Translations under genes and position numbers: made by a program
In this document: in pieces, positions 19,057 to 48,018 of the stretch
Layout of the letters: every line of letters begins with the position of its first letter
Position numbering within the stretch: position 1 is the stretch's first letter
IMG/VR virus record: IMGVR_UViG_3300030329_004197
Location: 1-48,018 of that record
Source of the DNA: a virus
Strand: one strand, 5' to 3'
DNA: 48,018 bases
The notes under the pieces: model-generated
Database searches by the model: none
Seen by the model: only the letters and a program-made list of their open reading frames with translations
Told to the model about the DNA's origin: nothing

Positions 19057-20990
19057 TGGCGAACCCCTTACATATAAAAGGGTCAAGAACGCGAGTATTA
19101 AATACCTTTCCAACAAATGATTTCGGAAAAGATGGCGATATAATTGTAGCTAGAATACTAAATAAAGGAGTATTCCTTTGCACTAAAGCTGGTGGTATGT
19201 GGTATGTTGCAAATAAAATGGAAGAATTAAGAAAGCACGATAGAGCTTCAATGTCAAAGCTTCAAACAAATTCTTTATCAATAAATAAACTTATAAACGC
19301 AGAAAATAATACAGACAAGATACTTGTAAGTGATTCTGGCATTGTTAAATACAGAACAAGTGATGAATTTGTTGATGACTTGGGTATATCTATTAAAGAT
19401 ATTAATTACAAACAAGCATATTGTTCTTTAGGTCAATATACAAATAAAGAAGATTGTGAAGCTAATAATGGTACTTGGTATTATTCTGAGAATGATTCTC
19501 ATGATAGTATAAGTAGTACTGCTGAAAATGAACTTTTAACAGTTGCATCTTCACTTGGTAAACTTGATGCAGAACCAACGCTTTTATATGATGGCTCAAC
19601 TCTTGAGATTAAAAGAAACTCAGATTATGATGATAATTGGCAAACATCAGCTCAAACAAATTTACTTAAATTAAGTTATGATTCGGACAATTATGCAACT
19701 TTTAGCGTTGATTCAAGCGGTGTAACAACAATAGCAACTGTAGATAGTGATGCTGCGCTAGGAACCTTGATTTTAGATGCTGATGGAAGAATACATTTTG
19801 ATTCATTTACAGGTTTGTATAATTTTTATGACCAAGGAGGTGCTGATGATTATATGCAGATAGAAGTTTCTTCTGCAGGCGCAACAGCAATCAAGACTAT
19901 TGACGCTGTTGGTGCGTATGGACATTTAACATTGGATGCTGATGGAGATATAATACTAGACCCTAATAGCGGAATAACTAAATTTTACAAAGCAGGTGAT
20001 ACTAATGACCTATGCACCTTAACTGTTTCTGCAAATGGTGCAACAACAATAGCAACAGCAGATAACGATGGAGCTGTAGGACATTTAACTTTAGATGTAG
20101 ATGGCGATGTTATATTAGACCCGAATAGCGGAATAACTAAGTTTTATTTAGCAGGAGACACTGATGATTTATGTACTTTAACTGTCGAAGCAAATGGTCA
20201 AACGACAATAGCTACAGCAGATTCTGATGGAACAGCAGGAAATTTAATATTGCAACCTGATGGAGAATTGGTTTTTAATGTTAAAAATGGTAGAGTTAGT
20301 CTTTATGATTCTGACAATTTATCAGATTACGCAAGATTTGACATTAGTGCCGACGGAGGATTGCAAATAGCAACTGTTGATAGCGCACTTTCAGGTGCTG
20401 ACTTTGTAGTAGATGCTGATGGAGATATAATATTAGATTCACATAATGGAAAATTTGAAGCTAAAAAAGCAGGTACTGAATTTAGTTCTGCTGGTTCTGC
20501 TTATGCAGGTATGATACTAGGATATACAAGAATACAAAATGATGGTGATGGTGGTGCAGATGCTATAATTTCACTTACTAATACTATGACTGTGCTTCAA
20601 ACAGAACAAGGAACTAATGTTAGTGTTACATTTGTAGCACCACCAAGTGGTAATGTAGAAATAGTATTTAGTTGTTATATTTATTCCTCAAGCACAACAG
20701 TTGGTTTTGCTCTATCTGATAATGCAACTTTTAATGAAATTAACGAAACTCACACTTACGATTTTGGTAGTTATAAAAGTGATGAAACAGACTATGATAC
20801 ACTTAATATAAAATGGGCTGTTACTGGATTAACAGCAGGAACATCTTACACTTATTATGTAGCAGGAGATGAATTATCAGGCAGTACCTCAATAATTTAT
20901 CAGGGTAGATTTAGAACATCAGGTTTACATGCACCACCTATACTTGTAAAGGCAGTAGCATTACCAGCAACAATTACAACAGGTGAATAG
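19056..20990 (+). CDS. Tail fibre protein with tandem repeats
   Basis: A 644-residue product. Residues 1-55 form a small attachment domain (DGDIIVARILNKGVFLCTK). At 123-141 is a disulphide-type motif (C-x10-C, then NNGTW). Residues about 241-470 hold four to five tandem repeats of about 52 residues (D-A-D-G-D-I-I-L-D..., then TLTV.ANG.TTIATAD.DG). The C-terminal 170 residues are a compact beta domain likely to contact the receptor. The gene overlaps the nozzle stop by one base, as expected for a fibre attached to it. Confidence 0.75.
   Translation: MANPLHIKGSRTRVLNTFPTNDFGKDGDIIVARILNKGVFLCTKAGGMWYVANKMEELRKHDRASMSKLQTNSLSINKLINAENNTDKILVSDSGIVKYRTSDEFVDDLGISIKDINYKQAYCSLGQYTNKEDCEANNGTWYYSENDSHDSISSTAENELLTVASSLGKLDAEPTLLYDGSTLEIKRNSDYDDNWQTSAQTNLLKLSYDSDNYATFSVDSSGVTTIATVDSDAALGTLILDADGRIHFDSFTGLYNFYDQGGADDYMQIEVSSAGATAIKTIDAVGAYGHLTLDADGDIILDPNSGITKFYKAGDTNDLCTLTVSANGATTIATADNDGAVGHLTLDVDGDVILDPNSGITKFYLAGDTDDLCTLTVEANGQTTIATADSDGTAGNLILQPDGELVFNVKNGRVSLYDSDNLSDYARFDISADGGLQIATVDSALSGADFVVDADGDIILDSHNGKFEAKKAGTEFSSAGSAYAGMILGYTRIQNDGDGGADAIISLTNTMTVLQTEQGTNVSVTFVAPPSGNVEIVFSCYIYSSSTTVGFALSDNATFNEINETHTYDFGSYKSDETDYDTLNIKWAVTGLTAGTSYTYYVAGDELSGSTSIIYQGRFRTSGLHAPPILVKAVALPATITTGE
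19776..20466 (+). repeat. In-frame 156-bp repeats in the fibre gene
   Basis: The fibre frame carries repeat units of 52 codons. The two most alike units begin at about 19938 and 20094 (protein DADGDIILDPNSGITKFY and DVDGDVILDPNSGITKFY). Outer units are more diverged. This suggests growth of the fibre shaft by unequal recombination, and such repeats can collapse in short-read assemblies. Confidence 0.7.
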
Positions 20991-36137: not shown

Positions 36138-36713
36138 CTATTCTCCTTTCGCTGATTTTAGTTCATGACACATTTCTTCTATCTTGTTCATACAGTCTTC
36201 ATAGTTATTAGCATTAACTTCCATATTAAAGACTTTATTTTTTAAATCATTTACAAACTTCTTTCCAAGAGGTTTTGCAAAGTCATAAAGATTTTCTTCT
36301 TCTTTAGGTGTTAATGCATCAGGCTCTGGTAAATCTTCACCAGCAAATATATATAACCCTAATCCATGTAAGGCAATACATTTAGCTAAAGCCCTTTGCA
36401 GACTTGTATTAATGTGAAACGCATTTGGTTTCTCTATTGGTTGATTCCTATTATCAAGAACTGGGTGTACTTGTGATAGAGACACTCCATCAACATCTAC
36501 CCATACCTCAACAAAGAACCCACATTCAGTTTTGAAGAATGGTTGACCATCTTCATCTTTTGTTACTCCCCATCTTGCAGTAGGACAAACTTTTTTAAGC
36601 TCTTGTACTGCATAACACCAAGATAAGTAACTAAACTTACCTTTCTTCTTAACGTATTTACTGACGTCTTTTTTGAAGAGTTTTTCGAATGTGTTTTGTG
36701 TTGTTTTACTCAT
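36138..36713 (-). CDS. DUF1071-type single-strand annealing protein (Sak3-like)
   Basis: A 191-residue product with the features of DUF1071: FSYLSWCYAVQELKKVCPTA (27-46), a beta region with GFFVEVWVDVDGVSLSQ, VHPVLDNRNQPI, and the ending INTSLQRALAKCIALHGLGL followed by YIFAGEDLPEPDA. The family is linked to phage annealing proteins that pair complementary single strands. It sits between the SSB-like protein and the exonuclease, the usual partner arrangement. Confidence 0.85.
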   Translation of the reverse strand: MSKTTQNTFEKLFKKDVSKYVKKKGKFSYLSWCYAVQELKKVCPTARWGVTKDEDGQPFFKTECGFFVEVWVDVDGVSLSQVHPVLDNRNQPIEKPNAFHINTSLQRALAKCIALHGLGLYIFAGEDLPEPDALTPKEEENLYDFAKPLGKKFVNDLKNKVFNMEVNANNYEDCMNKIEEMCHELKSAKGE

Positions 36714-37731: not shown

Positions 37732-37878
37732 TTATTTTTTTCTCATTGCTTTTATTACTTCTTTTTTCATGTCATCCCAGTCTGCGTTACTGATACTTCC
37801 ATGTGCTTCTTCCCAAAGTTTCCATACTAGAACTTTCAGCATATTTATTTCAGCTAACACATCTTCACGGCTATTCAT
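37732..37878 (-). CDS. Small hypothetical protein
   Basis: A 48-residue frame whose start (ATGAATAG) overlaps the stop of the previous gene by 8 bp. The product is helical: SREDVLAEINMLKVLVWKLW, then NADWDDMKKEVIKAMRKK. Function unknown. The gene closes the run before the AT-rich promoter-like region. Confidence 0.6.
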   Translation of the reverse strand: MNSREDVLAEINMLKVLVWKLWEEAHGSISNADWDDMKKEVIKAMRKK

Positions 37879-38059
37879 CTTTTTTACCTTCAAGCCCTAA
37901 TTCAAAAGATTTGATGATATTTTCCTTTACCCTTATCTTGCCCTCAAGTTCTTCAATTTGTTCCATTAAAAGCGCAATTTCGCGCAAATAAATGTCACTT
38001 TTAGCTTTGTCATCCATTTCACTTAACAATTTCTTTATAACATCACTTTCTAAATCCAT
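37871..38059 (-). CDS. Small coiled-coil protein
   Basis: A 62-residue product with heptad helix (IALLMEQIEELEGKIRVKEN). Ribosome site caggag. It is the gene directly downstream of structured element A (38085-38176), with 25 nt between. Function unknown. Confidence 0.6.
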   Translation of the reverse strand: MDLESDVIKKLLSEMDDKAKSDIYLREIALLMEQIEELEGKIRVKENIIKSFELGLEGKKDE

Positions 38060-38084: not shown

Positions 38085-38176
38085 TGGAGAGCCTCACATA
38101 TTCCTTTGCCTAGGTCATTCGGCTAACTTAATAGCTAGGACATTCAGGACTTACAGGACCAGTTGTTGGCTCCCCA
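38085..38176 (-). ncRNA. Repeated 92-nt structured element, copy A
   Basis: Shares with copy B (43791-43882) a 23-nt block (38089-38111) and a 28-nt block (38145-38172, one difference), separated in both by 33 nt of unrelated sequence. The ends pair: in the leftward RNA ugggGAGCC with GGCUCucca, nine pairs with one G-U. Three outer pairs differ from copy B but still pair, which is compensatory change. The core could add a hairpin gcua/uagc. It lies 25 nt before the ATG at 38059. Confidence 0.7.
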
Positions 38177-38195
38177 ATATTAGTGTCTCATTGCT

Positions 38196-38261
38196 TTATT
38201 TTTGATTAAACACTTCCATTATCAGTAAGATTAATACTATTACTGCTATCCACGCAATCAT
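38196..38261 (-). CDS. Candidate 21-residue membrane peptide
   Basis: ATG at 38261 overlaps the stop of the upstream gene in an ATGA junction and follows ggagatgata. The product MIAWIAVIVLILLIMEVFNQ then K is just one transmembrane helix. Downstream is element A. Tiny membrane peptides are hard to prove; coupling and composition support it. Confidence 0.45.
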   Translation of the reverse strand: MIAWIAVIVLILLIMEVFNQK

Positions 38262-38437
38262 TTATCATCTCCTTTGTAGTATTCTTCTTTGGTTTTTCCT
38301 TTATATTCCCATACAGGTACTCTCAAGCTCATAACGAATTCAATATCATCAAATTCTGGTAAGTTTTCTTCATCATACCCAAGCTGTCTTCCTATTGTAT
38401 CGAGAAAAGTCTGTTGATAGTCTTTTATTTTACTCAT
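38258..38437 (-). CDS. Small acidic hypothetical protein
   Basis: A 59-residue product, start at 38437 chosen for the ggagg site. Helix KDYQQTFLDTIGRQLGYDEE is followed by a beta pattern (DIEFVMSLRVPVWEYKGK). No family recognised. Overlaps the upstream gene by 8 bp. Confidence 0.6.
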   Translation of the reverse strand: MSKIKDYQQTFLDTIGRQLGYDEENLPEFDDIEFVMSLRVPVWEYKGKTKEEYYKGDDK

Positions 38438-38681
38438 TTTTATCCTCCATATACTGCTCAAATGTTATTGGTTTACAGGCTGTATTACAGGAACGACACC
38501 AATACATATCATCACAACAATCAAGAACCTCGTGATATACTTTACCATTAACAATTGCTGTATTATTAACTGATATCCAAGCTTGTTCTTCTATTTGGTC
38601 ATCACCACATACTTGACATACAAATATATTTTGAGAATTCAGTTTTTTAATGTCTTCTATCATCTTTTTTGTTTTTAACAT
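38430..38681 (-). CDS. Cys-rich zinc-binding-like protein
   Basis: An 83-residue product with CQVCG (22-26), a CC pair near 55 and CRSC (about 62-65) followed by another Cys, enough for two zinc sites. Ribosome site ggagg. Overlaps the next gene start and the previous stop by 7-8 bp. Function unknown. Confidence 0.6.
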   Translation of the reverse strand: MLKTKKMIEDIKKLNSQNIFVCQVCGDDQIEEQAWISVNNTAIVNGKVYHEVLDCCDDMYWCRSCNTACKPITFEQYMEDKNE

Positions 38682-39295
38682 ATTCTAAAACCTCCAGATT
38701 GTAAGCAAAATTCAGCAAATTCCCTAACATTATCTATATCAAATGGATATGACTTGTTCCAATTTTTTGTTTTGCCTGTTTTGTCGCAATTTGTACATTC
38801 TTTCTTTTTGTTGTGTCCGTGATTGTTATTGTTACACCTTATGCAATCATCATCAGGTAAGTCATCAATCCATTGGTGGTATTCTGCTTGGTATCTTATT
38901 GTGTTGCCGTTGTTTATTTCTTGAAGTAATAGCTGTCCAAGTTTTTTAGCTCCTTTATCATCAAGCCCTGCACCACTATTGCCATGACCATCTTCAAATA
39001 ACTTCTCATCAATTAAATCAGGTGCAACATTATGACAATAATTCCACAATGGTCTCCACCACCAACAGTTATTTCTGAAGTAATGTCCAACATTTACAGT
39101 TTCATATTCTTGTAGTTCAGTATAATATTGATTTCTTAATGTTTCATCACCATTAAGTTCTTTCCACTTCTGTTTAAAGCCATCAATATTATCTCCTTCA
39201 TCTGATTTTTCCATCATTGTATATTTGTGATATGTTGGAAACGCCTCTATTGGTTTATTCTGTTTTGGATTTCTCCCATATACATCCATTCCCAT
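38675..39295 (-). CDS. MGMDVYG-family phage protein with a zinc-finger-like segment
   Basis: A 206-residue product beginning MGMDVYGRNP and containing HYFRNNCWWWRPLWNYCHNV (71-90), a combination I know from conserved phage proteins of unknown function. Near 152-174 there are two Cys pairs (CIRC and CTNC then DKTG) as in DnaJ-type zinc fingers. The start has the recurrent aaaggagaataaa ribosome module. Role unknown. Confidence 0.65.
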   Translation of the reverse strand: MGMDVYGRNPKQNKPIEAFPTYHKYTMMEKSDEGDNIDGFKQKWKELNGDETLRNQYYTELQEYETVNVGHYFRNNCWWWRPLWNYCHNVAPDLIDEKLFEDGHGNSGAGLDDKGAKKLGQLLLQEINNGNTIRYQAEYHQWIDDLPDDDCIRCNNNNHGHNKKKECTNCDKTGKTKNWNKSYPFDIDNVREFAEFCLQSGGFRIC

Positions 39296-39306
39296 TTTAT
39301 TCTCCT

Positions 39307-40050
39307 TTATTTTTGTGTGAACTTTACTTGGTTTTTCTTTGTTAATCCAAAGTTATACACCATTTCAATGTTAGCTGTGTAGCCCTCTGGGTTTGCTTGT
39401 TTTGTTAGCATAGCTGAGCATTTGTTTAACTGACGCATCATTCTTTTTTGGTCATATAATCCTGTATCAAACACCCTGCAAAAACCCCATACAAATCTAG
39501 CAAAAGTAACGTGTTTTATGTTGAATGTGGTTTTAATTTCTTTAATGTATTTAAGTACATTATGACCTCTTGCAACAGTTAGAGCTTTCCATTTTAAGTT
39601 TTTAAATGCTGTGTTTCCGTATGCTCCTCCATACATTATTATAAGAGCAGTTAGTGGTAATTTTTCTTTTCTATATATTTTATCAAGAAATACATAGTCT
39701 TTTATACCATCTGTTACACCAAACTTAAGAAAGTCTTGCATTGACCAACTTTTAGCTGAGCTATCAAGTGAAATCATTGCATTGTTGTCTACATTTTCAA
39801 ACTCACAGTAAACAATCGGTGCATTAAGCCTTTTACAAGCCTCAACTGTATGTTGCCCAGCAAATACTTCAAGCTTACCTTTATGTTTTAATGATTTTCT
39901 AACAGATACAGCTGATATTATTCCGTGTTCCGACATACTATTCATTATGCCTTTTATCTGTTTTTTGTTTATATCTCTCTGATGAGCTGGAGATATAAAT
40001 ATTGAATAGTTTTTTGTTTCTCCTGTTTTTACGTATTTACTTGTTATCAT
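39307..40050 (-). CDS. ParB-like nuclease-domain protein
   Basis: A 247-residue product. Residues 15-80 fit a ParB/sulfiredoxin fold: ISPAHQRDINKKQIKGIMNS, then LEVFAGQHTVEACKRLNAPI with the G-[QH]-H/R-x-x-A pattern. In phages such domains act as DNA-binding or nicking modules. The rest is helical and unknown. The ribosome module aaaggagaataaa precedes it. Confidence 0.65.
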   Translation of the reverse strand: MITSKYVKTGETKNYSIFISPAHQRDINKKQIKGIMNSMSEHGIISAVSVRKSLKHKGKLEVFAGQHTVEACKRLNAPIVYCEFENVDNNAMISLDSSAKSWSMQDFLKFGVTDGIKDYVFLDKIYRKEKLPLTALIIMYGGAYGNTAFKNLKWKALTVARGHNVLKYIKEIKTTFNIKHVTFARFVWGFCRVFDTGLYDQKRMMRQLNKCSAMLTKQANPEGYTANIEMVYNFGLTKKNQVKFTQK

Positions 40051-40061
40051 TTTATTCTCCT

Positions 40062-40232
40062 TTATATTTGATATGTGTTAAACAATCTATCTGCATCTTC
40101 TTTTCCAAATCTCTCTGAAACTGTACGACATATTATACCAATCATATTATGTCCAAATGGTGTTCCTGCAAGTTCATCACACTCATTTTCAAGTTCATCA
40201 AGTGTTGCTGTTTTTAGATTTATTTTACTCAT
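40062..40232 (-). CDS. Small hypothetical protein
   Basis: A 56-residue frame, start at 40232 with the recurrent aaaggagaataaa module. Sequence features: acidic helix TLDELENECDELAG and then FGHNMIGIICRTVSERFG. No family recognised, but the coding pattern and site are good. Confidence 0.6.
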   Translation of the reverse strand: MSKINLKTATLDELENECDELAGTPFGHNMIGIICRTVSERFGKEDADRLFNTYQI

Positions 40233-40247
40233 TTTATTCTCCTTTGT

Positions 40248-40484
40248 TTATTCTTCGTTTTTAAAAGTTATATTTCTTGCTAATCTACCTCTGTTTTTAC
40301 TATCTAAACTTGCAATCCACGAAATGAAGTTTGCCTTCATGTGTTGAAATTTACCCCTTAAATAATCTCCTTCACTTGCAACATCAAATGCTGTTCCTGT
40401 TACTCCATAAGCATCTTCTGCGAATGTTTTAAGGTCAGTATCAACTGCCCATCTTATCATTTTCTCTATATCGTAACTATTCAT
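40248..40484 (-). CDS. Hypothetical protein
   Basis: A 78-residue product, start at 40484 chosen for the aaggag site and the ATGAATAG overlap with the previous stop. Helical, with AEDAYGVTGTAFDVASEGDY and a basic end. Function unknown. Confidence 0.6.
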   Translation of the reverse strand: MNSYDIEKMIRWAVDTDLKTFAEDAYGVTGTAFDVASEGDYLRGKFQHMKANFISWIASLDSKNRGRLARNITFKNEE

Positions 40485-40623
40485 CTTCTGTCTCCTTATA
40501 TATTCCTTGTTGTATGTATAACTGTAAAGATGTGTGTAGTTCATCTCTTTCTACATCATCTGATGTAAACCAATCAATGAAATGCTGTATTACATCCCAC
40601 CTATGTTCTCCACTGTCATTCAT
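40477..40623 (-). CDS. Small acidic hypothetical protein
   Basis: A 48-residue frame starting at 40623 after aaggagaaagaag. The product contains WDVIQHFIDWFTSDDVERDE and ends TEDE, whose codons carry the next start. Function unknown. Confidence 0.6.
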   Translation of the reverse strand: MNDSGEHRWDVIQHFIDWFTSDDVERDELHTSLQLYIQQGIYKETEDE

Positions 40624-40637
40624 CTTCTTTCTCCTTA

Positions 40638-40781
40638 TCAGTTTATATTGTCTGGATTATGAAATCTCTCATAAATATCTACTATTTCCATAACCTTTTC
40701 AAAAGTTTCTATGCTGTCTGTCTTTAATCTTGCTGTATTCTTGTCAAGCAAAGCGTTTTCTATTTCTTTTTTAAGATTCAT
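40638..40781 (-). CDS. Small helical hypothetical protein
   Basis: A 47-residue frame starting at 40781, overlapping the previous gene by 11 bp, with a ribosome site aaggagaaagaag. Charged helix (LKKEIENALLDKNTARLKTD). Function unknown. Confidence 0.6.
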   Translation of the reverse strand: MNLKKEIENALLDKNTARLKTDSIETFEKVMEIVDIYERFHNPDNIN

Positions 40782-41088
40782 CTTCTTTCTCCTTTTCTGC
40801 TACGTGTTCATATAATCCTTCACAGATTGCCTCATATATGTTTGCCTGTATTTGGTCGTGTGCGTTACCATTTGGATTTGTCTCAGGTATATCCTGCATT
40901 AACCAAGGATTCCACGCTGCATACTGACCAATATCCCAATAATATATTGGAACAGCATTGTCTGCTATTTCATGTATAAGGTCTTCATCTGTATAATCTT
41001 CATCTTCATCAATTAAATCATCATATTCTTCGCAGGCATCAATAATTAAACTACTTAACTGATAGTCTTTTTCTTTTGTTTCAGCCAT
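40771..41088 (-). CDS. Acidic hypothetical phage protein
   Basis: A 105-residue product, very acidic in 19-50 (EEYDDLIDEDEDYTDEDLIH), followed by VPIYYWDIGQYAAWNPWLMQ. Small acidic proteins with this VPI.YWD.. pattern occur in marine phages. DNA mimicry or a structural role cannot be told apart. Start shares one base with the previous stop. Confidence 0.6.
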   Translation of the reverse strand: MAETKEKDYQLSSLIIDACEEYDDLIDEDEDYTDEDLIHEIADNAVPIYYWDIGQYAAWNPWLMQDIPETNPNGNAHDQIQANIYEAICEGLYEHVAEKEKEDES

Positions 41089-41357
41089 TATGCCTCCTTT
41101 GTTCTTTTATGATAACCACTTGTTCTTGGCAGAAACATTTCATCAAATGTTCCATTTATATCGTGTGCTATTGTTGGTGTTATTTTGTTTTCCATATCAT
41201 TCTTTTTACAGAATTTTATGAAAGCCTCAATATCTTCAACTCCAAACTGCTCAACGTAATTTCTAGCAATCCAAGACTTCTGCATCTCATCTTCAAATTC
41301 CCAATGGCTGAGATGTTCGTTCATTATTTCTTTCAGTTTTTTCATTTCTTCTATCAT
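41088..41357 (-). CDS. Hypothetical protein
   Basis: An 89-residue product with the aaaggagaataaa ribosome module. Mostly helical with EQFGVEDIEAFIKFCKKNDM and a basic C-terminus. No family recognised. Confidence 0.6.
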   Translation of the reverse strand: MIEEMKKLKEIMNEHLSHWEFEDEMQKSWIARNYVEQFGVEDIEAFIKFCKKNDMENKITPTIAHDINGTFDEMFLPRTSGYHKRTKEA

Positions 41358-41358
41358 T

Positions 41359-41652
41359 TTATTCTCCTTTATATCTTGATTTAAAATAAGGATTTTCCCA
41401 ATCTGGGCTGTCTATTGCAGATTGAGCATCTCGCAAAGCAATCTCCAGACATTTAATTTTCTTATTTTTATCACCTGTCGTACTGAAAATCGTTGTTTCA
41501 TTTAGATATGTGTATATCTCAAGCAATAATTCAGCATCTATAAACTGATTGAGTTTTAAATCTCTGCCTTTTACTAATGCTTCATTTTTAGCGATTAGTT
41601 CTTTTCGCTCTTGTATTATTTCATTTATAGTTTTATTGTATATATCAGTCAT
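41359..41652 (-). CDS. Hypothetical coiled-coil protein
   Basis: A 97-residue product with a helical N-terminus (NEIIQERKELIAKNEALVKG) and a second helix with the phrase KCLEIALRDAQSAID. The start overlaps the previous stop by 4 bp (ATGA type) and has the aaaggagaata site. Function unknown. Confidence 0.6.
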   Translation of the reverse strand: MTDIYNKTINEIIQERKELIAKNEALVKGRDLKLNQFIDAELLLEIYTYLNETTIFSTTGDKNKKIKCLEIALRDAQSAIDSPDWENPYFKSRYKGE

Positions 41653-41987
41653 TTATTCTCCTTTGTTATCATTGAAAATGGAACATTCCATCTTCTACCA
41701 TCAATAATTACAACTGCTCTTGTTCTGTTGATTTTTTGGATTACTCCATATTCAACTTTTGAATTGCTAGTTACTTTTACTTTATCATTAACAGCAAGTT
41801 TGTATTTGGTCTTGTTTCCAAGATAATCACGTCTGTCTTTGATAAATTGCTGTATTACTCGCAAATCTCTTATGTCTTCTATTTTGTTTATTCTGTCTTG
41901 TATGTCATCTAAATACATAGTATTCTCCTTTTTATCTGTTTGTTTATCCCAAAACCATTCAAAGCTCTCATAATACTCTCTATTCAT
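41649..41987 (-). CDS. Hypothetical protein with beta C-terminal domain and a possible internal start
   Basis: A 112-residue product. The start at 41987 forms ATGAATAG with the previous stop and has aaagga upstream. A second in-frame ATG at 41918 (residue 24) has a better site, aaaaggag. Residues 24-60 are helical; 70-110 form a small beta barrel-like module (AVNDKVKVTSNSKVEYGVIQ) similar to KOW/SH3-type modules. Two products of 112 and 89 residues are possible. Confidence 0.6.
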   Translation of the reverse strand: MNREYYESFEWFWDKQTDKKENTMYLDDIQDRINKIEDIRDLRVIQQFIKDRRDYLGNKTKYKLAVNDKVKVTSNSKVEYGVIQKINRTRAVVIIDGRRWNVPFSMITKENK

Positions 41988-42264
41988 CTGGTTCCATCCT
42001 TTCTCCAGCATATGCTGGGTCATAATATTCATCTTTCCTATATGGATAATTGTCTTTATAGCAATCATCACAATACAAGCCTGTATATATTCCATAAGCA
42101 TCTGCTCTTGCCCACTTATGATAAACGACAGATGGTATGCTAAAATCTTTGCCCATAAACTCAATTAAACTTCTTGAAGCCTCAACATTTCCTTCTTCGT
42201 TGTGAAAGAAATCAGTATCGTCTTTTTTACAACCTCTACAGTGATATAAATAGTCTTTATCCAT
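41980..42264 (-). CDS. Small zinc-binding-like protein
   Basis: A 94-residue product; start at 42264 chosen for the ggggagg site. CRGC (about 9-12) and CDDC (about 65-68) could bind zinc as a split finger. The rest contains an acidic Tyr-rich tail (KDEYYDPAYAGERMEPDE). Function unknown. Confidence 0.6.
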   Translation of the reverse strand: MDKDYLYHCRGCKKDDTDFFHNEEGNVEASRSLIEFMGKDFSIPSVVYHKWARADAYGIYTGLYCDDCYKDNYPYRKDEYYDPAYAGERMEPDE

Positions 42265-42649
42265 ACACAACCTCCCCAAAGCAAGCAGTTTGTACCAATA
42301 TATCTGCATCCGAAGCATCCCAGCCACCATATAATAGTCTGTTTAATGCTTTTGTATATTTATATTCAGGTGCATCCATTTTCTGTAATGCGTCAATAAT
42401 TGATTTCTTTGTTATTGGATGTTTTTCTCCTGTTTCTGACTCGTGTATGTACATCACAGCATCTTTCAGCTTTGTCTTTGTTAGATATTCGTGTTTCCAG
42501 CCACCAACCTTTTTCATATCTTTATTATCTTTGCAACTGATATTGTTTGCCCAATATGTTATGCCTCCTTCAAATGCAGAGCATAATATATATTCAATCA
42601 GTTCATCTGATATTTCTATTCTTCTGTTTATTATATTCATATCAGTCAT
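42257..42649 (-). CDS. Conserved phage hypothetical protein
   Basis: A 130-residue product. The ending WDASDADILVQTACFGEVVYG and the stretch CSAFEGGITYWANNIS match a phage family I recognise without a known function. It overlaps the upstream and downstream genes by 4-8 bp. Ribosome module aaaggagaata. Confidence 0.65.
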   Translation of the reverse strand: MTDMNIINRRIEISDELIEYILCSAFEGGITYWANNISCKDNKDMKKVGGWKHEYLTKTKLKDAVMYIHESETGEKHPITKKSIIDALQKMDAPEYKYTKALNRLLYGGWDASDADILVQTACFGEVVYG

Positions 42650-42858
42650 TTATTCTCCTTTATTATTACTGATTTCTTTATTTCTATTTTTTCTTCAATC
42701 CATTCAATATGGCGCTGATTTATCTCTCTTGTATTGTATAAAATATCCTCAGCATATCCATCATTGAAGGCTTCCATTTGGGCTATATATACATCTGAAT
42801 TACGTATTTCACTTTTTAGTTTATCTAATAATTCCATAAGTATTTGTTCTGCTGTCAT
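42646..42858 (-). CDS. Small helical protein
   Basis: A 70-residue product with two helices (AEQILMELLDKLKSEIRNSD and REINQRHIEWIEEKIEIKKS). Ribosome site aggaggta. Function unknown. Confidence 0.6.
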   Translation of the reverse strand: MTAEQILMELLDKLKSEIRNSDVYIAQMEAFNDGYAEDILYNTREINQRHIEWIEEKIEIKKSVIIKENK

Positions 42859-43023
42859 TTATACCTCCTGTTTATTTATAAACTCTTGCTTCATTCTTGC
42901 ATATGTTTCTTCATCAGTTGCATCAATAAGTCCACCTGATATTATTCCAAGACATATACCTGCTGCTTTGTCTTTATTCATTCCATCTTTTACATATTCT
43001 TTATATACTTCTGATATTTTCAT
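42859..43023 (-). CDS. Small hypothetical protein
   Basis: A 54-residue frame, start at 43023, overlapping the previous stop by 4 bp (ATGA) with aaggaga upstream. Sequence: helix KISEVYKEYVKDGMNKDKAA, then GICLGIISGGLIDATDEETY. Function unknown. Confidence 0.6.
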   Translation of the reverse strand: MKISEVYKEYVKDGMNKDKAAGICLGIISGGLIDATDEETYARMKQEFINKQEV

Positions 43024-43208
43024 TCGTTCTCCTTTTTGCTTATTACTGATATTATATCATTTACTCTTTCTCTGAAATGAGATACAGTTATGCTACCATT
43101 CCATTCCAAATTAGCCAACTCTCTGATATGGTTAAATGCTTCTTTATAATCAATACTTGTATACATTTTATTTAAATCAACTATTACTTTCTTTTCTGTT
43201 TTTGTCAT
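43020..43208 (-). CDS. Small hypothetical protein
   Basis: A 62-residue product with start at the previous stop (1-bp overlap). Helical with charged surface; phrase DLNKMYTSIDYKEAFNHIRE. Function unknown. Confidence 0.6.
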   Translation of the reverse strand: MTKTEKKVIVDLNKMYTSIDYKEAFNHIRELANLEWNGSITVSHFRERVNDIISVISKKENE

Positions 43209-43522
43209 TACACAAACCTCCCTTCAAGGTATTCAATTGGATAATCAGGATAATGTTTGTGTAGTTCTTCTACAAGTTGATTGTATTCGCCTACTGTAAA
43301 ATCAGTCAAATCAGATACATCTACCCAATTATCTTTAGTACCATCTTTAAATGTACTTCTACAGTTCAAATATATATTATCTTTCCATTCATAGACAGCA
43401 AACTCCATTTCTGATATTTTAATGATTGGATACTTTTCTTTGCGATACACAGTCCTTTCTTTTAGCGATTTATCAAGTTCATCATCAGTCATCGCATTGA
43501 TTATATCTTGCACTTTCTTCAT
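43208..43522 (-). CDS. Hypothetical protein with M[ST]DDEL N-terminus
   Basis: A 104-residue product. Its beginning (IINAMTDDELDKSLKERTVY) resembles that of the upstream gene (MNMLSDDELREALMKRKQYK). The remainder is beta-rich (EFAVYEWKDNIYLNCRSTFK). The shared N-terminal pattern hints at a duplicated interaction helix. Ribosome site aaggaga. Confidence 0.6.
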   Translation of the reverse strand: MKKVQDIINAMTDDELDKSLKERTVYRKEKYPIIKISEMEFAVYEWKDNIYLNCRSTFKDGTKDNWVDVSDLTDFTVGEYNQLVEELHKHYPDYPIEYLEGRFV

Positions 43523-43550
43523 ACAGTCTCCTTTTCTTTTTATTCTTCTG

Positions 43551-43766
43551 TTATTTATATTCCCTTTGTTTTCTCATATCGTCAATTAAAGGAATCAGCA
43601 TACCTTTTATATCTTTTATTTCAGCTCCTTCATCGCAAGTCTGTAAAATTCCTGAAACTCGCTTTTCAAAATGTTCCATAACTTTGTATTGTTTCCTTTT
43701 CATTAATGCTTCTCTTAACTCATCATCAGACAGCATGTTCATTCTTTCTTGTAGTGTTGGCTTCAT
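43551..43766 (-). CDS. Small hypothetical protein downstream of element B
   Basis: A 71-residue product, start 24 nt after element B, with an aaaaggagg ribosome site. Helical; N-terminal pattern LSDDELREALMKRKQY as in the next gene. Function unknown. Its expression could be controlled by element B. Confidence 0.6.
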   Translation of the reverse strand: MKPTLQERMNMLSDDELREALMKRKQYKVMEHFEKRVSGILQTCDEGAEIKDIKGMLIPLIDDMRKQREYK

Positions 43767-43790
43767 ATAGCCTCCTTTTCTTTTAATTCT

Positions 43791-43882
43791 GTGAGAGCCT
43801 CACATATTCCTTTGCCTTTCGCCGCCAGACTTATTTGTATGCTGTTGTTCCAGGACTTACAGGACCAGTTATTGGCTCTCAC
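43791..43882 (-). ncRNA. Repeated 92-nt structured element, copy B
   Basis: Same organisation as copy A: 23-nt block (43795-43817), 33-nt variable core (43818-43850), 28-nt block (43851-43878). The ends pair perfectly over nine bases (gugaGAGCC with GGCUCucac). In the leftward RNA the last paired base lies 24 nt before the ATG at 43766. A hairpin with weak terminator character lies just upstream (43911-43942), so the element may start its own transcript or be read through. Confidence 0.7.
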
Positions 43883-47549: not shown

Positions 47550-48018
47550 ATGGAAGAAAAAAATATATTAGAAAGTATTATAGATTACATTAAACCAAAG
47601 GCACATGACGCAATTGATGCTGTGACCGAGGCTTGGGAGCAAACTCAATCACAGCCTAGTCAAATAGGGAATTTGCCACCAGAAGTAGAGAATATTGTCC
47701 AAGGCCTTGTTACAGGGATGGTAGGTGGAGGTGGCTCAGCAAAGGGAGTAGATGTAATAAAAAAGATTTTAAAAAGAAATGATAAAGGACTTGAAGCTTT
47801 AAAATCAGCTCAAAAAGAAGCGATTAATTATAGTAGAATATTACCACAGACGGCAAAAAAACAACCTGCTCGAGAACTTTCACAAGAACTAATTGCTCTT
47901 CTTTCTGGTGGAGCAGGTGCAACAGGAGCTGCTGCTGGAATGACATATAAAGATAATCCTATTGTTAATTTTCTTTCCGAGCTCATGATGTCTGACCCTG
48001 ATATGTCTGATGCGGATA
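47550..48018 (+). CDS. 5' part of junction-spanning phage protein
   Basis: ATG at 47550, ribosome site aaggag, one base after the endolysin stop. The frame is open to the window end and continues at position 142 to the stop at 213-215, in total 180 residues. It has Gly-rich segments (LVTGMVGGGGSAKG; ALLSGGAGATGAAAG) and the phrase EAINYSR also found in the MshEN-like protein. It may be membrane-active or a virion component. No family recognised. Confidence 0.75.
   Translation, partial: MEEKNILESIIDYIKPKAHDAIDAVTEAWEQTQSQPSQIGNLPPEVENIVQGLVTGMVGGGGSAKGVDVIKKILKRNDKGLEALKSAQKEAINYSRILPQTAKKQPARELSQELIALLSGGAGATGAAAGMTYKDNPIVNFLSELMMSDPDMSDAD
47878..48018. repeat. Terminal overlap, right copy
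   Basis: Same sequence as 1-141 apart from tg at 47918-47919 (ca at 41-42). See the left copy. Two adjacent differences suggest that reads from two variants were joined, rather than an exact assembly overlap. Confidence 0.9.

Follow-up and report, generated by a model that had tools for sequence, protein, structure and literature searches.

Two intergenic elements of 92 nucleotides (nt) each, with near-identical flanks and unrelated interiors, lie in the viral record IMGVR_UViG_3300030329_004197 (IMG/VR; positions 1 to 48,018, the whole of which is called the window here). What kind of element keeps its frame while changing its core? An earlier note on this DNA proposed a structured leader RNA. 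Our comparisons show that both elements belong to a widespread family of structured RNAs, here named SC1, which lies between genes of marine phages and is, as far as we could find, undescribed. Judged from sequence, SC1 is a hypervariable, nested, recombining RNA element and not a gene-specific leader. The two window copies, A and B, are composed as follows.

38085..38176, minus strand: copy A of the SC1 element, whole, 92 nt (direct reading of the sequence)
38168..38176, minus strand: copy A, closing stem P1, 5' arm UGGGGAGCC (folding; covariation)
38147..38167, minus strand: copy A, conserved 5' scaffold strand AACAACUGGUCCUGUAAGUCC, inner pairs UCCU and G.CC (near-invariant columns in 66 scaffolds)
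38112..38146, minus strand: copy A, variable module UGAAUGUCCUAGCUAUUAAGUUAGCCGAAUGACCU, 35 nt (variant with another apical hairpin in locus L080)
38094..38111, minus strand: copy A, conserved 3' scaffold strand AGGCAAAGGAAUAUGUGA (scaffold alignment)
38085..38093, minus strand: copy A, closing stem P1, 3' arm GGCUCUCCA (folding; covariation)
43791..43882, minus strand: copy B of the SC1 element, whole, 92 nt (direct reading of the sequence)
43874..43882, minus strand: copy B, closing stem P1, 5' arm GUGAGAGCC (folding; covariation)
43853..43873, minus strand: copy B, conserved 5' scaffold strand AAUAACUGGUCCUGUAAGUCC (scaffold alignment)
43818..43852, minus strand: copy B, variable module UGGAACAACAGCAUACAAAUAAGUCUGGCGGCGAA, 35 nt (identical module in L015 between different flanks)
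43800..43817, minus strand: copy B, conserved 3' scaffold strand AGGCAAAGGAAUAUGUGA (scaffold alignment)
43791..43799, minus strand: copy B, closing stem P1, 3' arm GGCUCUCAC (folding; covariation)

As leftward RNA, copy A reads UGGGGAGCC, AACAACUGGUCCUGUAAGUCC, module UGAAUGUCCUAGCUAUUAAGUUAGCCGAAUGACCU, AGGCAAAGGAAUAUGUGA, GGCUCUCCA, and copy B reads GUGAGAGCC, AAUAACUGGUCCUGUAAGUCC, module UGGAACAACAGCAUACAAAUAAGUCUGGCGGCGAA, AGGCAAAGGAAUAUGUGA, GGCUCUCAC. The description in the earlier note holds in most respects. Specifically, the flanks have 50 of 51 bases in common, with the 23-nt block identical and a single change (AAC/AAU) in the 28-nt block. The closing stem has nine pairs, and A and B differ in three of the four outer ones (U-A/G-C, G-C/U-A and G.U/A-U), two of these being compensatory changes; the G.U pair is present in the leftward strand only. 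Copy A ends 25 nt ahead of its ATG at 38059, and copy B 24 nt ahead of its own at 43766. That the unrelated cores are equally long, to which the note also pointed, is true of both copies but is a coincidence, as the insert ranges from about 3 to 133 nt across the family. The structure is supported by family-wide covariation rather than by single-sequence folding of the window copies, which yields z scores of −2.1 and −1.8, weak support when taken alone.

Scans of IMG/VR with the exact two-flank pattern found matches in 28 other viral contigs; a relaxed flank pattern gave 46 matches, and single-block scans gave 103 and at least 119 stretches. Because the flank pattern recurs in 28 other viral contigs, and in more than 100 more by relaxed patterns, the window elements are not chance. 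After parsing, the family comprises about 140 distinct elements of roughly 60–250 nt, all within viral or virus-like contigs, and its hosts are marine phages, mostly of the P22-portal type. Nearly all of 40 SC1-bearing records have exactly one copy, and two records have two. The block AACUGGUCCUGUAAGUCC...AGGCAAAGGAAUAUGUGA is nearly invariant, a conservation that is partly due to the way members were found, as the scans demanded an exact match to one or both conserved blocks. A scan of cellular genomes gave five matches: L050, L052 and L053 were rejected as chance matches, and the contigs L051 and L054, from a Flavobacteriales metagenome-assembled genome and a Prochlorococcus single-cell genome, are virus-like. 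A blastn search of INPHARED (cultured phages) with the window region and two element types returned nothing meaningful.

Comparison with Rfam agrees with the earlier impression that the element falls in no known RNA class. The Rfam 15 covariance models gave no match above the gathering cut-off in the window on either strand, only chance-level matches (E>3) for copy A at permissive settings, and no match in 15 loci with long modules. No description of the SC1 consensus sequences or of this element type was found in the literature, with subscription papers and bioRxiv preprints mostly outside the search.

From the outside in, the SC1 frame consists of P1, an internal loop AAUA/UGA, the pairs AC/GU, a loop UGG/AUAU, a stem UCCU/AGGA, a junction GUAA/AA and a stem G(U)CC/GGC. 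Modules occupy the stem tip and the junction; at the latter, some elements have a second insert, between UCCU and UAAGUCC. Covariation was counted in an alignment (A1) of 66 distinct SC1 scaffolds with the module removed, using pair counts from related sequences outside R-scape. In the 12-column P1, two-sided changes occur in 11 of 12 pairs and 94.2% of cells pair; the covariation score is 0.352, whereas shuffled versions score 0.122 and slid ones 0.120 at most, which bears out the covarying closing stem of the earlier note. P1 variants include GAGAGCC/GGCUCUC, GGGGAC/GUCCCC, GGGGUAC/GUGCCCC and GGAGAAC/GUUCUCC. The inner eight P1 pairs contain 25 G-U cells versus 3 A-C cells, and therefore the leftward (sense, mRNA-like) strand is the functional one. 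Such compensatory stem changes, with the G-U bias of one strand, mark SC1 as a structured RNA rather than a DNA repeat. The inner stems UCCU/AGGA and G(U)CC/GGC say little on pairing because they are almost invariant; the pair at the stem tip alternates between U-A, A-U and C-G in the 66 scaffolds, and L185 has a C-G to G-C swap within the inner stem. SC1 variants in L041, L038, L043 and L161 have an added 3' stretch ...AUAUGUUAUAUAAAACAGGUAGAGCUGA ahead of the closing stem.

The interior of the frame is hypervariable even where the surrounding DNA is not. In pairs of loci with both flanks at least 90% identical, the modules are unrelated in seven of eight cases, the extreme being L114/L138, with flanks 100% identical. 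The outer shell P1-CAAUA...UGAG-P1' holds quite different interiors at homologous sites, and at the copy B site of the relative L452 the outer half of the frame is kept around a different interior; exchange is therefore nested, acting at several hairpin levels. At the copy A site, the relative L127 has no element and L027 has a different folded sequence. L080 has one module unit nested inside another, and also window module A with another apical hairpin. Window module B is identical in L015, with other flanks; L020 was rejected as an independent recurrence of module B, being the same virus as the window (flanks 100%).

The inserts are no random loops. Across SC1 and a second scaffold, SC2, a census grouped 212 module instances into 128 clusters, 40 of them recurrent, 11 found in more than one slot and seven found in both scaffolds. 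Compensatory changes are also seen within modules: ACUACGAUA is followed by AUC..GAU, ACC..GGU or AUCC..GGAU and then GCCCUGU; GGGCGAAAGCC stands against GGGUGAAAACC; and CACGGG..CCCGUG stands against CAUGGG..CCCAUG. SC2 (UUGACAGGCGAG...CUAACGAGGGUCAA) was found by tracing one module into another frame; it has its own closing stem and modules in common with SC1, and is occasionally in tandem with SC1 (L060, L243). A third scaffold, SC3 (UGUUGGGAAUC...UGCGGGUAG.GCAACACGGGUGUCGUGUC), has a pseudoknot-like sequence ahead of it, and the SC3 of L133 carries an SC1 module. A scan with a loose module pattern gave mostly chance matches in coding DNA, L243 being the sole new module context. These comparisons show that modules are swapped between phages, slots and scaffolds and by nesting, amid flanking DNA that is 90–100% identical. 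Occurrences of the two further scaffolds are as follows.

L111, 5099: SC2
L243, 1484, minus strand: SC2
L069, 7802, minus strand: SC2
About 50 other occurrences: SC2
L133, 3373, minus strand: SC3
L009, 821, minus strand: SC3
L122, 4258, minus strand: SC3
L148, 1627, minus strand: SC3

Most SC1 elements start 13–30 nt past a stop codon. From the GGCAAAGG block it is usually 40–60 nt to the next start codon. The nearest open reading frame (ORF) has the same sense as the element in 130 of 142 cases on the upstream side and in 129 of 140 on the downstream side; most of the exceptions are short ORFs without relatives. By sequence inspection, the commonest neighbours are a protein of about 180 amino acids (aa) and one of 582 aa that has primase and RecA/DnaB-like motifs, and others resemble Sak4, ThiF/E1, radical SAM and DUF932 proteins, as named from their sequences. 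SC1 stands ahead of primase-helicase, Sak4-like, radical-SAM-like and DUF932-like genes and many small unrelated ones, and also directly behind a primase gene. Genes shared by 14 contigs are mainly virion genes, which reflects phage relatedness, and no obvious RNA partner is among them. In L119 (9951-10026) and L151 (774-849), about 10 nt separate the end of a tRNA-Met gene from a following SC1-like element; a tRNA link to SC1 was rejected, as tRNA-Met lies just upstream in these two loci only.

The structured leader RNA of the earlier note survives in part: a folded leftward RNA whose closing stem covaries and which adjoins the ribosome site is borne out, but the regulation of a particular gene is not. 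A gene-specific leader is disfavoured because the neighbouring genes vary; the element is intercistronic, with no consistent pathway or downstream gene. More broadly, a cis-regulatory leader of the downstream gene (riboswitch, antiterminator or protein-bound leader) fits an element that ends about 10–25 nt ahead of the ribosome site and downstream gene families that recur in some contexts. It is nevertheless very improbable, as downstream genes are unrelated across the family, sometimes no gene is close, and the scaffold alignment suggests no conserved alternative terminator or anti-Shine-Dalgarno pairing. Guide RNAs appear disfavoured as well, as far as targets on their own contig are concerned: the longest antisense match of modules to that contig (mean 8.56 nt versus 8.82 nt shuffled, n=117) shows no excess. 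A class of self-cleaving ribozymes whose peripheral domains vary, in which the conserved internal loops would be the active site and the different scaffolds would be equivalent, might account for conservation focused on internal loops within a variable outer stem; small self-cleaving ribozymes (twister, pistol, hatchet, hairpin) likewise have conserved internal loops, and optional insertions of any length, often long, are typical of them. We consider it improbable: SC1 has no Rfam ribozyme match and its modules recur between scaffolds, whereas to our knowledge the peripheral domains of known ribozymes are not recurrent cassettes common to other scaffolds.

Two further explanations concern turnover of the interior. 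A selfish or DNA-level recombining element (an attC-like folded site, a recombination linker or a mini mobile element), with the interior as cargo, would explain near-identical cores in phages with portals only about 36% identical, exchange amid identical flanks, nested copies and the element-free site in L127. Integron attC sites resemble SC1 in their conserved ends around a variable-length terminal structure and in their one-strand fold; SC1, however, is always in sense between genes, the exceptions above aside, and its RNA-type G-U bias points to RNA. Whichever scaffold a module sits in, its closing stem is remade so that it pairs there; no attC boxes (RYYYAAC/GTTRRRY) were seen by eye in the scaffold alignment, and neither an integrase nor a transposase was noticed at the elements, no systematic search having been made. 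We give this explanation little probability. An intercistronic mRNA processing or stability element, a fold cut by an endonuclease or blocking exonucleases to give separate decay rates, is unlikely but stays a serious rival, because the sites tolerate other hairpins or none. Any stable fold would serve and interiors would turn over; the closing stem adapts per site, and the location directly past a stop, ahead of the next ribosome site and in sense would fit an RNase III site. T7-type RNase III processing hairpins are irregular, intercistronic and just ahead of the next ribosome site, much as SC1 forms irregular hairpins between phage genes. However, a generic hairpin needs neither a near-invariant 40-nt core nor modules compensatorily conserved across phages, and SC1 is usually present only once per genome. 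We know of no T7 RNase III sites that, as SC1 does, share a near-invariant core or exchange structured modules.

The reading that we tentatively prefer is that SC1 may be a co-transcribed scaffold presenting an exchangeable structured RNA module, with the module as the specificity part. SC1 RNA would be made within the operon transcript, and the scaffold would be the carrier that folds and displays the module. Modules would be exchanged through phage homologous recombination at the conserved blocks of about 20 nt; the window phage encodes a Sak-type annealing protein. In the two least certain steps, the module would bind a partner (a host or phage protein, an RNA or a ligand), and an arms race would maintain diversity through decoy or anti-defence aptamers or through escape from a sensor of phage RNA.

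Several findings weigh against such a scaffold with exchangeable modules. Singletons make up 88 of the 128 module clusters, so function is argued for the recurrent modules only. The exact SC1 copy is mostly missing in near relatives of the window phage. Because homologous sites may have another hairpin or nothing, any one site can do without the element, as would also be expected if generic intercistronic hairpins turned over neutrally. A phage RNA display system, in which a co-transcribed, conserved frame with nested slots would hold a large repertoire of exchangeable folded modules that recombination would diversify in an arms race (as anti-defence decoys or by escape from RNA-sensing defence), is a doubtful extension of the scaffold reading; if true, it would be an RNA counterpart of cassette-based protein diversification.

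SC1 resembles GOLLD and ROOL in being a structured noncoding RNA whose function is unknown, those RNAs often being phage-linked (PMC12286853). In contrast, GOLLD and ROOL are hundreds of nt long and already described, while SC1 is short, without Rfam match and built of interchangeable modules. Phage anti-CRISPR RNAs and solitary CRISPR repeats are, like SC1, small phage RNAs with conserved flanks and a variable core, but the SC1 flanks are not mutual repeats and the variable part is a folded module. As far as we found, nested, cross-scaffold module exchange is a new pattern for phage RNA, and we can name no known kind of RNA that has it. Natural RNAs are rarely viewed as being put together from interchangeable domains that move from frame to frame among the viruses of a population. 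In the present case, at least three scaffolds and two slots hold the same folded modules, with compensatory changes, and phages whose flanks are identical differ in the module. If functional, the modules would make up a new level of diversity among phages and could serve as natural aptamer-like parts; should they be neutral, they would still record cleanly how RNA domains are shuffled in nature.

Other folded regions were observed besides these scaffolds. Large composite folded regions at about 1950-2090 of L008 and in the insert of L068 (2435, minus strand) share the sub-blocks AGCCCAUG..AUGGUAUGCU, CAGUAUAAGGC and GGAGGGA.AUCUG, and bigger modular RNAs may exist. A further conserved folded intergenic element, UAUCAGCGCGACAAGU...GGAAUUGUCCGUGAAAUCACACGCUGAUA, lies upstream of SC1 in L164 (minus strand) and at about 17500 in L463. 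A module with GAGGGAAUGGUGCAAAUCCAUCGUGU (inserts of L104, L112 and L126) looks by eye slightly like part of the cobalamin riboswitch core and has no Rfam match.

The 48-kilobase window encodes a P22-like portal, a terminase, a DnaB-like helicase and a Sak-type annealing protein, the last a possible agent of module exchange. Both SC1 copies are encoded leftward and flanked by small leftward genes. The genes concerned are as follows.

36138..36713, minus strand: Sak-like single-strand annealing protein (PHROG 659, E 9.5e-52; Pfam SSAP_Sak, E 4.6e-43)
37871..38059, minus strand: 62-aa gene downstream of copy A (PHROG search only: marginal match, function unknown)
43551..43766, minus strand: 71-aa gene downstream of copy B (without PHROG match)

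The window record is probably a complete genome, circular or terminally redundant, because it has a 141-nt direct terminal repeat (1-141 versus 47878-48018, 99% identical). Tandem repeats of 159 nt occupy positions 19698-20237 within a 644-aa ORF without PHROG match, which is possibly a tail or fibre protein.

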